From contig SLDV01000168.1 in assembly GCA_007125165.1 (NCBI GenBank), forward strand, positions 1-35,832: a DNA stretch of 35,832 bases. The letters run 5' to 3'. Shown in pieces: positions 30,389 through 33,992 of the stretch; position 1 is the stretch's first letter, and each line of letters opens with the position of its first letter. A program made the position numbers and the translations under genes. The DNA is from Geobacteraceae bacterium. Lineage in GTDB: Bacteria > Desulfobacterota > Desulfuromonadia > Desulfuromonadales > Geopsychrobacteraceae. A model generated the notes under the pieces. It worked only from the letters and a program-made list of their open reading frames with translations, ran no database searches and had not been told where the DNA came from.

Positions 30389-30424
30389 GTAGGGGCGATA
30401 CATGTATCGCCCGCTTGTTTGAGA
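30389..30424. repeat. GTAGGGGCGATACATG repeat, copy 1
   Basis: A 36-bp sequence identical to 30987-31022. Its core is a 20-bp perfect palindrome (GGGCGATACATGTATCGCCC). This GTAGGGGC-headed type of palindromic element is dispersed in the region and looks like a REP/RAYT-mobilised unit. Confidence 0.9.
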
Positions 30425-30469
30425 GCAACATCAACACCAAGGTCGTGGGGTCGCGGCCCCACTCGCCGC

Positions 30470-30499
30470 CATACTTTTGGCAAACGCTCCAAAAGTATG
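30470..30499. repeat. CCAAAAG-type hairpin
   Basis: CATACTTTTGG (30470-30480) pairs perfectly with CCAAAAGTATG (30489-30499) across an 8-nt loop. A similar CATCCTTTTGA hairpin lies at 30919-30946. The region 30360-31030 reads as an array of such structured non-coding repeats and not as a gene. Confidence 0.65.
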
Positions 30500-30693
30500 C
30501 AAAACATCTTTCCACTGCGTGGAGCACTTGAGATACGCACGGTGCGGAGCGCTGATGGCTGACAGGGAATGGCAGATGGTCGCAGCCACTTTTCACGAAA
30601 AGCGACAGGCGCCCCTGTTCGCTTACGCTCGCAAGGGGATGCGTCGCGTGCATTCGGTGGTAAAGGCCCGTACCGATCAAGATAACGGTCAGC

Positions 30694-30722
30694 GTAGGGG
30701 CAGGCCCCTGTGCCTGCCCGGC
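30694..30722. repeat. GTAGGGGCAGGCCCC repeat
   Basis: GTAGGGGCAGGCCCCTGTGC... forms a palindrome-like hairpin (GGGGCAGGC with GCCTGCCC) and shares the GTAGGGGC head with the copies at 30389 and 30987 while differing in the core, so it is a related subtype. Confidence 0.65.
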
Positions 30723-30918
30723 CTCTCAACGGACTGTTCGTCTCCCACCTCAGGTCACCAGCCCCACCGCCCGTCACCCTAAGGCCGCTTGAGCGCAGCT
30801 CAGCAGGCAACCAGGTTGAAACCTTGATGAACCGACCATCACCGTTGGGCAGATATCAACCCGAATAGCGAGGGATCACCGTCTATCTCAAGTGCCCCAC
30901 GCAGTGGAGGCGTTTTTG

Positions 30919-30946
30919 CATCCTTTTGACGCCTATCAAAAGGATG
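30919..30946. repeat. Second CTTTTGA hairpin
   Basis: CATCCTTTTGA (30919-30929) pairs with TCAAAAGGATG (30936-30946), loop CGCCTA. It precedes the second GTAGGGGCGATACATG copy, whereas the 30470 hairpin follows the first copy. Confidence 0.65.
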
Positions 30947-30986
30947 GCGCTCGGCGGTGCGCGAACCGCCGGTTGAACGGTTTACC

Positions 30987-31022
30987 GTAGGGGCGATACA
31001 TGTATCGCCCGCTTGTTTGAGA
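30987..31022. repeat. GTAGGGGCGATACATG repeat, copy 2
   Basis: An exact 36-bp copy of 30389-30424, ending in GCTTGTTTGAGA. It forms the left border of the AT-rich, cassette-bearing segment. Confidence 0.9.
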
Positions 31023-31120
31023 TTAACACTAGCTAAATTTGACAACAACCCATCGATGAGGTATCAACGACAATATTGAATTTGGGGGGCAGAAGATGAG
31101 GGGAACATCACACTGAATAC

Positions 31121-31164
31121 AAAACGCCACCACATCGGCCTTATGCTGATCGGTGGCGTTTTTT
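31121..31164 (+). terminator. Strong Rho-independent terminator
   Basis: AAAACGCCACC (31121-31131) pairs with GGTGGCGTTTT (31152-31162). An inner stem ATCGGC/GCTGAT has one wobble pair, and six T's end the structure. No gene immediately upstream can be supported, so it may be a relic of a lost gene or insulate the cassettes from the left. The rest of 31023-31427 holds no supported gene. Confidence 0.75.
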
Positions 31165-31251
31165 GTTGAAGCGCCAAAACGACAATGATTTACAAGCATG
31201 TATTGAATAAAGGAGGCAAGGGAGTCAGCAGCCCTCTGGATGGACTTTGAA

Positions 31252-31279
31252 CCGTTATAGGCAGATCTGCCTATAACGG
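31252..31279. repeat. 28-bp perfect palindrome
   Basis: The sequence CCGTTATAGGCAGA at 31252-31265 is followed directly by its exact reverse complement, with no loop. The halves contain GTTATAGGC and GCCTATAAC, which resemble the outer core boxes of attC sites but in the wrong order for one site. It could be an operator or a product of recombination between two core sites. Confidence 0.7.
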
Positions 31280-31324
31280 GAAGGGTAATGAGCATAGCGA
31301 ATGTAACATATTGAAGTATATGGT

Positions 31325-31346
31325 AAATACGGATTTGTCCGTATTT
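31325..31346 (+). other. Short hairpin with T-run
   Basis: AAATACGGA and TCCGTATTT surround TTTG, followed by TTAA. It is terminator-like but short. It lies 80 bp before the first cassette gene. Confidence 0.4.
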
Positions 31347-31427
31347 TAATAGGGAATTATATACAGCTCGGACTTTCTGTGTTAGCAGTTTTATACAGAA
31401 ACTGTCCATTTATAGTTGGGGCTCACA

Positions 31428-31925
31428 ATGAAGTGGTTTCTCATCTTGGTAATGCTTCTTCCCAGCACGCTTTACTTTGCTTACAGCGAATTACTAATAG
31501 CACTGATCGGCGGCTGCACGAGAGCAATGTTTTATGGCGGACCCGGCTGGCCATGCACGTTCCGTGTAATCAGCGCGTATGGCGGAACAATGGGGCTTGC
31601 TCTACTTTGGAGACTAGCCCTTGCGTCTGATCGCCGCATCTTCTGGCGCTCAGGAGCCCTCGCCCCAGGATTTAAAGCTGGTTTTCTGGTGCTGGTGGTT
31701 GCCCTCATTTCACATCACTTCGTATACGTTTCGCTTTCTTGGACGCAACCCGGCGCCGCGTTCCTCAACTACTTCTCCCGGGGCATCCCATACTTCCTTC
31801 TAGACATCTATTGGTGGTTGCTCACGGCAGCCGTCGCGGTGTGCATGTTCTACTTCGGCAGGCGTCCCAGTGAGCCCCAACAAGGCGCTCCAGCCGACAT
31901 GCTCGCTTCGCGAGAACGCGGCTGA
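31428..31925 (+). CDS. Cassette-region membrane protein, unknown
   Basis: A 165-aa protein from ATG 31428 (MKWFLILVMLLPSTLYFAYS); an in-frame TTG at 31416 is less likely. Four hydrophobic spans (about 2-20, 45-62, 80-102 and 125-147) and a polar tail (RRPSEPQQGAP...). No family is recognised. A possible degenerate attC right box (GTTGGGG, 31415-31421) ends 6 nt before the ATG, preceded by a GGAC-TTTCTGT/ACAGAAA-CT-GTCC hairpin (31366-31404 area), but no left box is visible. It shares a putative cassette with the next gene, since no attC separates them. Confidence 0.65.
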   Translation: MKWFLILVMLLPSTLYFAYSELLIALIGGCTRAMFYGGPGWPCTFRVISAYGGTMGLALLWRLALASDRRIFWRSGALAPGFKAGFLVLVVALISHHFVYVSLSWTQPGAAFLNYFSRGIPYFLLDIYWWLLTAAVAVCMFYFGRRPSEPQQGAPADMLASRERG

Positions 31926-31955
31926 GCTTGGACGTAGCGCCAGGGAGCGCTTGCT

Positions 31956-32399
31956 GTGATTTTAACAAGACGAAATCTAATCATGTTTGGTTTTGGGCTG
32001 GCTTGCGCCTTTTTCGCCTTCGGGTTCGCAAAAGCTGTCGCGTCCGTAGTTAGCGATCCGCAATACTATGTCCGTGCCGTTGTCGTAGAAATCGCGCCTG
32101 ACCGAGGCGGGTTGCATACCGTCAGCTTCATAATCAAGGAGCTTATAGTGAGGCAAGAAAAATATGGGGGATACAGCTTGCCAAACGCTCTCCCCATGGA
32201 GATTTCTACGGAAGATTCGCATATCCTTCAAATAACGCTCAATCCGCGCGTGAGCGTTAAGCCAGGCGATACTATCGTGGTTGGCGTTATCCATGGATCG
32301 AGTATGGGTGAGAGCGAACCGGTACCGTGGATCACGTTTGCTCATCCGTACCTTGAGGATGGTACTCCCATCGGCCTCTATTATGGAGCACGAAATTGA
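31956..32399 (+). CDS. Cassette-encoded exported/anchored protein, unknown
   Basis: A 147-aa protein from GTG 31956 with GGGAG 8 nt upstream; ATG 31983 is an alternative. The N-terminal hydrophobic segment (FGFGLACAFFAFGFAKAVASVV) acts as a signal peptide or anchor. The rest is a compact, beta-rich domain (YVRAVVVEIAP...LHTVSFIIKELIV...ISTEDSHILQITLNPRVSVKPGDTIVVGVIHG) of no recognised family. Its stop is 33 nt before the left box of the attC at 32432, the normal place for a cassette gene. The 30 bp before it have a small GCGCC/GGAGCGC hairpin. Confidence 0.68.
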   Translation: MILTRRNLIMFGFGLACAFFAFGFAKAVASVVSDPQYYVRAVVVEIAPDRGGLHTVSFIIKELIVRQEKYGGYSLPNALPMEISTEDSHILQITLNPRVSVKPGDTIVVGVIHGSSMGESEPVPWITFAHPYLEDGTPIGLYYGARN

Positions 32400-32431
32400 T
32401 GCGGGGCGATGATGGCCAACATGGAAATGAT

Positions 32432-32492
32432 CGCTAACAAACCAAATGCAGCCGATACCAAAAGGCGGCGCGGCTGATTTGCGGTGTTATAC
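32432..32492 (+). other. Integron attC recombination site (complete)
   Basis: A 61-bp site with all attC parts: R'' CGCTAAC (32432-32438), L'' CAAATGCAGCCG (32443-32454), a 16-nt loop, L' CGGCTGATTTG (32471-32481) and R' GTTATAC (32486-32492). The L arms pair perfectly except for one extra base (G32448), the extrahelical base expected in a folded attC. The next gene starts 24 nt after R', as in cassette arrays. Recombination would cut after G32486. The orientation puts any integrase to the left. Confidence 0.85.
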
Positions 32493-32516
32493 CTAAACCA
32501 CACAGGAGGCCATCAC

Positions 32517-32777
32517 ATGAGAGACGTTTTCTTTTTCGATGCAATGCTAACCCCGAAGATCATCACTTTTGTCTATTGGTTGCTATTACTGTTTGCTGTT
32601 GTTTCAGGGCTCGGTTCAATGTTTGGCGGATATGGTGGAGTAACTTTCGGAAAGTTTCTGATGGGGATTGGGGTAATGATTGGTGGGGCAGTGGGAGCAA
32701 GGATTTGGTGTGAGTTGTTAATTGTACTTTTCAAAATCCATGAGAACATTAAAAAGCTTGCCGATAAACAGGGATAA
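32517..32777 (+). CDS. Cassette-encoded DUF4282 membrane protein
   Basis: An 86-aa protein from ATG 32517, chosen for AGGAGG 8 nt upstream. Pattern MRDVFFFDAMLTPKIITFVYWLLLLF...GARIWCELLIVLFKIHENIKKL matches DUF4282: two spans, then the conserved RxWCE-x2-IVLFKI-x-EN motif. Function unknown. Its TAA stop is part of the left box of the following attC, a compact arrangement typical of cassettes. Confidence 0.8.
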   Translation: MRDVFFFDAMLTPKIITFVYWLLLLFAVVSGLGSMFGGYGGVTFGKFLMGIGVMIGGAVGARIWCELLIVLFKIHENIKKLADKQG

Positions 32778-32938
32778 CAATGCAAATCACCGGCGGAAAA
32801 AAGCGCCACTCGTTCCTCGCGCTGCTTTTGCCGCCGGTGATTTGCGGCGGTCAAGCGGACGGGGATCGGGCAGTGGTTCACGGAAAAATGTCTGCCTGGC
32901 CCACTGCCGCAGGGCCGCCGCTTACCTCTACGTTAGGC
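32772..32938 (+). other. attC site, apparently a fusion of two sites
   Basis: The left half has R'' GGATAAC (32772-32778) and 15-bp perfect arms GCAAATCACCGGCGG (32782-32796) and its complement (32831-32845), but its right box is a mutated GTCAAGC (32850-32856). The right half has a left arm AAGCGGACGG (32853-32862), pairing with CCGCCGCTT (32915-32923) with one extrahelical A, and an intact R' GTTAGGC (32932-32938), but no R''. An inner stem GGCAGTGG/CCACTGCC (32869-32876, 32901-32908) lies between. Read as one site it is 167 bp, long for an attC. Confidence 0.72.
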
Positions 32939-32945
32939 AATGGTC

Positions 32946-33317
32946 ATGATGAGATGGATCGCTGTTCTTTTGCTGGCTCTTCCTGCCACTGGATTGGCCG
33001 AGACTGAGCCGGAGTTTTGTTTGTGCTCGCCCTTTGTGGAAAAGTCGGAAGTTGGGGAGCAGACTGAACTTGGCTGGCCGGTATACGTCAAGTTGACAGG
33101 GATTGGCGCCGCGAGTTTGGAGGCATTTACGGAAGTAAACGCTGGCAAAACTATCCGCGTTATTGCCGGTCGTCGCGAGTTTTTGAGGGCGAAAGTATCG
33201 GTGCCAATTACTAGCGGAAACTTACATGGGACATTCAGTTCACATGAAGTGGCTAGCGATTGGCAGCGAACTTTGTCAGGTAAACTGCCGGCAGCCCCAT
33301 GCGGTGCATTGAATTGA
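32946..33317 (+). CDS. Cassette-encoded secreted protein with SecD P1-head-like domain
   Basis: A 123-aa protein beginning 7 nt after the attC right box. ATG 32946 is chosen because AGG of that box (GTTAGGC) lies 8 nt before it; ATG 32940 and 32949 are alternatives. Signal peptide MMRWIAVLLLALPATGLAE, then a small domain whose pattern SLEAFTEVNAGKTIRVIAG...KVSVPITSGNLHGTFSSHEVASDWQRTL resembles the periplasmic P1-head subdomain of SecD (F-x2-LT-x2-N-x-GK..., G-x-I-x-G-x-F-x3-EA-x-L). It is a stand-alone domain with no translocase part. No attC is found after it, so the cassette end has been lost. Confidence 0.68.
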   Translation: MMRWIAVLLLALPATGLAETEPEFCLCSPFVEKSEVGEQTELGWPVYVKLTGIGAASLEAFTEVNAGKTIRVIAGRREFLRAKVSVPITSGNLHGTFSSHEVASDWQRTLSGKLPAAPCGALN

Positions 33318-33404: not shown

Positions 33405-33992
33405 CTACCGTTTCTCCACCTTGTTCATCAGCGCCAGCAGCAACCCCAGGGTGATAAAGGCACCGGGTGGCAGGATCATCAAGATGACCGGTTGGTAATC
33501 TGCACCGAAAATACTAAATCCAAGAAACTCCCCGGCACCAACAAGTTCACGAATACTACCGAGAATAAAGAGCACCAGAGTAAAACCGGCACCCATGCCG
33601 AGACCGTCGGCGACGGCGTTGGTCACCGGGTGTTTGGAGGCAAAGGCTTCGGCGCGTCCTAAAATCAGGCAGTTGCAGACAATCAGGGGTATAAAGATCC
33701 CCAGAGCCTGAAACAGATCATAAGCATAAGCCTCCATGGTCAGTTGGACCACGGTAACAAAGGAGGCGATGATCAGGATAAAGCAGGGAATCCGAACCTT
33801 GTCGGGAATCAGGTGACGCATCATGGCGACGACGGCATTGGAGCAGACCAGTACAAAGGTGGTAGCCAGACCCATACCGAGGCCGTTTTCGGCACTGGTG
33901 GTGACCGCCAATACCGGACACAGACCCAGCAGCAGCTTGAAAACGGCATTTTCCTTCCAGATGCCGCGGTTGAAATCATGTGCCAGGCTCAT
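33405..33992 (-). CDS. rnfE: Rnf electron transport complex subunit E
   Basis: A 195-aa six-span inner-membrane subunit. Family marks: FNRGIWKENAVFKLLLGLCPVLAVTTSAENGLGMGLA (N-terminus and first span) and PLIVCNCLILGRAEAFASKH, with the conserved Cys/Asn that takes part in the membrane [2Fe-2S] site with RnfA. The RnfA/RnfE core moves electrons across the membrane while Na+ or H+ is pumped. It overlaps rnfG by 4 bases (ATGA). It is the last rnf gene on this side; rnfA and rnfB are not downstream, so the operon probably has the A-B-C-D-G-E order, with A and B beyond the right edge. Confidence 0.95.
   Translation of the reverse strand: MSLAHDFNRGIWKENAVFKLLLGLCPVLAVTTSAENGLGMGLATTFVLVCSNAVVAMMRHLIPDKVRIPCFILIIASFVTVVQLTMEAYAYDLFQALGIFIPLIVCNCLILGRAEAFASKHPVTNAVADGLGMGAGFTLVLFILGSIRELVGAGEFLGFSIFGADYQPVILMILPPGAFITLGLLLALMNKVEKR

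Follow-up and report, generated by a model that had tools for sequence, protein, structure and literature searches.

A cluster of attC sites lacking an integron-integrase is known as a CALIN (IntegronFinder, PMC9024848), and in genome surveys CALINs are about as common as complete integrons (PMC9024848). Among the reverse integrons of Treponema, T. phagedenis has attC sites without an intI gene (PMC3607928). How CALINs arise is mostly inferred. In this study, we analysed a stretch of 35,832 bp (the window) in which one such route, an internal deletion of intI with the leader and attI kept, can be read and is repeated in relatives.

In leader-peptide attenuators of the trp type, a short ORF with a Shine-Dalgarno (SD) sequence is followed by a terminator or stem-loop upstream of the gene. 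Translational attenuation has been described for the cmlA cassette (reviewed in PMC8876359). The controls of intI covered by the same review include the SOS response and transcription (promoter) interference, and a leader attenuator is not described in it (PMC8876359); nor did our literature search, whose scope left out most subscription journals, find a description of a leader attenuator of intI. The locus reported here is very probably a decayed, sedentary, co-oriented chromosomal integron whose intI has been deleted, whose array is frozen and whose leader we infer to be an attenuator.

The locus and its host

The window is one whole contig (C28) of a MAG of 2.64 Mb in 172 contigs that is 93% complete. 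As its RnfE shares 92-94% protein identity with that of Pelovirga terrestris and two congeners, the host is a Pelovirga-like Desulfuromonadales bacterium. The features of the locus are as follows.

31039..31167, plus strand: intI-type leader (promoter, 6-codon ORF and terminator), from covariance model, stem covariation and sequence reading
31170..31247, plus strand (the cassette strand): intI 3' remnant, last ~26 codons, SAKTTMIYKHVLNKGGKGVSSPLDGL and stop, from TIGR02249 matches and tblastn
31248..31421, plus strand: attI region with a conserved core, from alignment with 9 other integrons; crossover in GTTGGGG (31415-31421)
31416..31934, plus strand: cassette 1, with ORF1 (31428-31925, 165 aa), predicted membrane protein
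31875..31940, plus strand: attC1, decayed; R'' CCCCAAC, R' GTAGCGC (one T lost); ORF1 stop inside
31935..32486, plus strand: cassette 2, with ORF2 (31956-32399, 147 aa), N-terminal hydrophobic segment
32432..32492, plus strand: attC2; R'' CGCTAAC, R' GTTATAC, extrahelical G in L''
32487..32932, plus strand: cassette 3, with ORF3 (32517-32777, 86 aa), DUF4282 (PF14110, E 1.4e-17)
32772..32938, plus strand: attC3; inner unit 32772-32857 without intact R', outer unit 32849-32938 without R'', ending GTTAGGC
32933..33317, plus strand: cassette 4, with ORF4 (32940-33317, 125 aa), predicted signal peptide
33405..33992, minus strand: rnfE, right flank of the array; 92-94% protein identity to Pelovirga relatives

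To the left, dispersed GTAGGGGCGATACATGTATCGCCC-type repeats form a REP-like block (30389-31028) that adjoins the leader, and leader copies at other places in the same genome also have similar repeats close by. PADLOC gave no match, and neither did an Rfam scan at gathering threshold; a permissive Rfam scan of the leader/attI region returned only a sub-threshold chance match.

The integrase remnant and attI

The original prediction had stated that no integrase lies to the left of the array. This proved wrong, as the last ~26 codons of intI are found there, at 31170-31247 on the plus strand, followed by attI. In a genome-wide profile search, 31173-31247 matched positions 291-315 of the 315 positions of TIGR02249 (E 4.1e-5), and a second match covered positions 292-313 (E 1.2e-6). 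By tblastn, 23 aa of the remnant peptide, which ends in TTMIYKHVLNKGGKGVSSPLDGL and a stop, align with the end of a relative's IntI at 96% identity. The gene is deleted up to about codon 290, and the functional intI of a complete integron is therefore absent. The genome-wide integron-integrase profile search gave no match above the curated cut-off, the window contributing the 26-codon remnant only, and all further integrase-like genes that were found there are XerC/XerD-like; as the MAG is 93% complete in 172 contigs, an intact intI could be missing from the assembly. Searching the genome for intI and similar attC sites brought to light a second array with an attC, at contig C154, but no other integron integrase. 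With no integrase found elsewhere in the MAG, the array is taken to be frozen. The position of the remnant on the cassette strand implies a co-oriented arrangement, as in Treponema (PMC3607928); in the window remnant as in the intact relatives G046 and G058, intI lies on the cassette strand with its 3' end towards attI.

From the intI stop to 31421, the sequence can be aligned to both intact and truncated integrons from the order, and a genome of another family matches the attI stretch at 87% identity over 247 bp. Identity to the nine other integrons is 63-95% at 31361-31421 and 20-53% past 31422, a drop expected with a crossover at GTTGGGG (31415-31421) followed by different first cassettes. 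As in a complete integron, attI adjoins both the end of intI and the first cassette. A palindrome, TATAGGCAGATCTGCCTATA, lies right behind the intI stop (31252-31279) and at the same place in relatives; together with related half-sites within attI, it possibly represents candidate extra binding sites for IntI.

These features bear on whether an integrase was ever present locally. A CALIN could also be formed by off-target insertion of cassettes where no integrase had resided, an origin possible for CALINs (PMC8618304) and compatible with the lack of a complete intI in the contig. However, such an origin is very improbable for this locus, where the intI 3' end, a conserved attI and an intI-type leader stand immediately upstream of the array in the right order and orientation.

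attC sites and cassettes

A simple R''/R' folding scan missed the attC sites of the window because R'' is degenerate, and a covariance model was used instead, built from 19 sites (7 class 1 plasmid integrons and 12 Desulfuromonadales) that did not include those of the window. The predicted attC at 32432-32492 with an extrahelical base, attC2, was borne out as the best match in the window (20.9 bits, E 0.0056) and the second best genome-wide (E 0.42), and its bottom strand folds as an attC with the extrahelical base. An additional site, attC1, had been overlooked in the original prediction and was spotted by eye inside the end of ORF1 before the covariance scan, which placed it (31880-31935; 16.3 bits, E 0.088) second in the window and third genome-wide. 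The second predicted site, ending in GTTAGGC at 32938, does exist, but it is unusual and matches the model weakly. Its inner stem is a perfect inverted repeat (32782-32845; R' GTCAAGC; 9.5 bits, E 4.8), and its outer stem (32849-32938) lacks an R'' box of its own and overlaps the inner unit. Together with computed folds, this leads us to read attC3 as an apparent chimera of two fused attCs.

Only three matches at E<10 were found in the whole genome, namely C154:797-848 (27.6 bits), which is the best and sits in the second array, attC2 and attC1. The modest attC scores and the REP-like repeats just upstream might suggest chance repeats or REP-type hairpins in place of attC sites, and ordinary species-specific genes in place of cassette ORFs; yet two of the three matches fall in this array and the third in the second array, and attI stands at the array start, so that this reading is exceedingly improbable.

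The array comprises four cassettes and three attC regions; cassette 4 ends without an attC, and the array is truncated ahead of rnfE. As predicted, the genes start just past the right boxes and all lie on one strand. Novel membrane or secreted products had been expected, and ORFs 1, 2 and 4 fit this in matching no Pfam family above the cut-off (ORF2 has no convincing family match), whereas ORF3 is a DUF4282 protein. ORF1 and ORF4 are absent from all 135 other genomes of the order, and ORFs 1 and 2 found no match in plasmid searches. Vertical conservation of the segment in distant relatives, which would have spoken against the original prediction, was not seen for the two ORFs searched (1 and 4), nor were low covariance scores at both predicted sites, as attC2 scores well. 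With at least two clustered attC sites (the IntegronFinder 2 default), as judged by our purpose-built model (attC2, E 0.0056; attC1, E 0.088), and with no complete integron-integrase nearby, the array is a CALIN by definition. The original description as a CALIN-like cluster is thus apt for a cassette array without a working integrase, but not for its origin, which, given the leader, the intI 3' end and attI, was not integrase-free.

At the rnfE flank of congeners, we found other cassettes with their own attCs, including HigBA- and BrnTA-like toxin-antitoxin modules (named from their translations). A cassette located immediately after attI in another family shares 84% identity with the HigBA-like one, which indicates that cassettes have moved, and the different contents in congeners indicate that this was an active integron locus in the genus whose contents changed. 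No clean empty site was found at the rnfE flank. Instead of cassettes inserted between a REP block and the rnf operon, as had been proposed, the locus holds the remains of a resident integron.

The leader and its relatives

The leader of the window consists of a promoter (TTGACA-17-TATCAA, 31039-31067), an SD sequence (GGGGGG), a 6-codon ORF (MRGTSH and stop, 31096-31116) and an intrinsic terminator with a stem at 31124-31159 and a T-run. The promoter and the ORF were read from the sequence, the promoter by comparison; a generic sigma-70 scan did not report the promoter, and generic terminator scans missed the bulged terminator, which RNA folding found. The segment 31031-31169 was first read as a mere dispersed sRNA or repeat, a view that was downgraded after the order-wide search with a leader model.

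This covariance model was built from six leaders of other genera, none from the genus of the window. It matched the window leader at 40.7 bits (E 4e-7) and found three further full copies in the same genome. The plan upstream of intI in relatives is a TTGACA-17-TTGAAT promoter, a strong SD sequence, an ORF of ~6-9 codons, a terminator stem, a further SD sequence and the intI start, as seen before the intact intI of G046 and G011 and the truncated intI of G009, G011, G026 and G058. Pairing of the stem reaches 95% among 24 matches. Double-sided changes number 38, compared with 12 in shuffles and 0-4 when the pairing was slid, a count biased towards structure because the sequences were aligned to the leader model. 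Among 297 sampled genomes of the phylum, no match reaching E 1e-6 was found outside this order. In sequence terms, three elements of a leader attenuator are present in the intI 5' UTR, namely promoter, short ORF with SD sequence and intrinsic terminator.

However, the leader is not exclusive to integrons, since some copies stand before other genes or alone (G006:C71, G009:C50, G011:C73, G027:C139 and two of the four in the window's genome). Within the order, a leader of this kind is lacking before several intact intI genes. The solitary copies of the window's genome, at L155 3928-4066 (G000:C73) and L189 211-342 (G000:C51), have the ORFs MRETLH and MREVSH and lie away from any integron part; genes of another kind may be under their control.

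The leader might accordingly be an independent, multi-copy small RNA gene next to which the integron remnant lies by chance. It has its own promoter and terminator, two of its four copies in the genome lack integron parts, and some copies in relatives precede unrelated genes. Nevertheless, we consider this unlikely, because in relatives the leader is the 5' UTR of intI, with a strong SD sequence and the start codon 9-28 nt past the terminator end (four loci); because about 16-18 of the 22 order-wide matches at >=49 bits (7 of them training loci) adjoin intI, attI or attC; and because in 9 of 11 sequences checked a short ORF with an SD sequence ends 48-56 nt before the leader end.

Loss of intI at other loci

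Partial or complete deletion of intI with the leader kept, and mostly attI as well, was found at ~15 loci in 11 genomes (the window, P. terrestris, G005, G009, G011, G026, G043, G049, G051, G058 and G094); as the loci were found via the leader or the intI 3' end, this recurrence gives no measure of selection. Counts of 3'-only versus 5'-only intI fragments were considered as proof of selection and rejected, as many fragments lie at contig edges and the searches select for the leader or the 3' end.

The remains differ between loci. G094:C2 and C1 have a window-type leader (MRESSH), the intI start, an internal deletion, the intI 3' end and attI; at G005:C111, G058:C40 and G043:C35, intI is gone and attI lies directly behind the leader; and in G049 the leader match is weaker (24.1 bits) and immediately adjoins an intI 3' remnant and attI. 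G005:C50 and G026:C15 were also among the new leader-model matches checked, and at several newly matched loci attC sites lie downstream on the same strand. Internal deletions of intI were also observed at L147 (G041:C37), with ~codons 1-22 joined to 258-315, and L143 (G016:C158), with 1-40 joined to 224-315. Some IntI-like recombinases (e.g., L013, L016, L019 and L025) have open frames of 444-514 aa, longer than a normal IntI.

A second locus lies upstream of an aminotransferase gene. In P. terrestris, the leader terminator is joined there to a degenerate intI end, behind which lie an attC and a RelE/HigA-like cassette; of other congeners, one has an array of ~6 cassettes and one is empty. In the window's own genome (L184, G000:C154, 1-860), this locus holds a HigBA-like toxin-antitoxin cassette with an attC and is cut by the contig end. 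The window (31170) and P. terrestris C1 (L157 3474-3500), which belong to different species and represent different loci with distinct types of intI and attI downstream, have the junction between leader terminator and intI, GTTTTTTGTTGAAGCGCCAAAACGACAATGATTTAC, in common. Candidate origins for the shared junction are a single deletion with subsequent recombination and the movement of a unit. At L156 3480-4640 (G000:C84), a leader copy is followed ~370 bp downstream by a HigBA-like module, the end of which resembles a decayed attC; this locus is probably a third integron relic.

Discussion

The leader, the intI remnant, attI, the attCs, the cassettes and the recurrence in relatives can be read in the DNA itself, and they suggest the following history. 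The integrase gene would have lain upstream of attI, transcribed in the direction of the cassettes, and cassettes would have entered at attI (31415-31421) through integrase-mediated attI x attC recombination of the usual kind. A later deletion would have taken intI from just behind the leader terminator to about codon 290, with the promoter, leader ORF and terminator retained on one side and the last 26 codons, attI and four cassettes on the other. The attCs appear to be eroding, with a base lost in attC1, attC3 fused and the terminal attC missing. As an attenuator of intI transcription, the leader would act through a ribosome on the 6-9-codon ORF that influences the passage of RNA polymerase through the terminator, and its promoter may now read through the terminator into the co-oriented cassettes ~0.3 kb downstream.

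We propose, from these sequence features, that intI in Desulfuromonadales may be under leader-peptide attenuation and that intI deletions would leave static, leader-driven cassette platforms; there may be a selective reason for keeping the leader and attI. A wider reading is tentative. One leader-peptide attenuator might control both intI and the cassettes in co-oriented Desulfuromonadales integrons, and repeated internal deletions of intI that spare the leader and attI might have been favoured by selection, since they would freeze the array, place it under the attenuated promoter and so yield static, regulated cassette operons.

Like other CALINs, the array of the window lacks a complete intI but carries cassettes with two or more attC sites. 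It differs in that attI is retained, along with the 3' end and the leader of intI, which makes the route, loss of intI by deletion, directly readable. With the Treponema integrons it shares an intI transcribed toward attI in the cassette direction and a loss of intI that leaves attC at a syntenic site; in contrast to them, it belongs to another phylum, the deletion end, attI and a leader with a terminator are preserved, and the loss is found at many loci within one order. The leader resembles the trp-type and cmlA attenuators in having a short ORF with an SD sequence and then a terminator upstream of a gene, but differs from both in standing before an integron integrase. If the leader is an attenuator, the integrase, and possibly the cassettes, would be controlled by a route not found in the literature searched, and gene capture would be tied to translation rather than to the SOS response.
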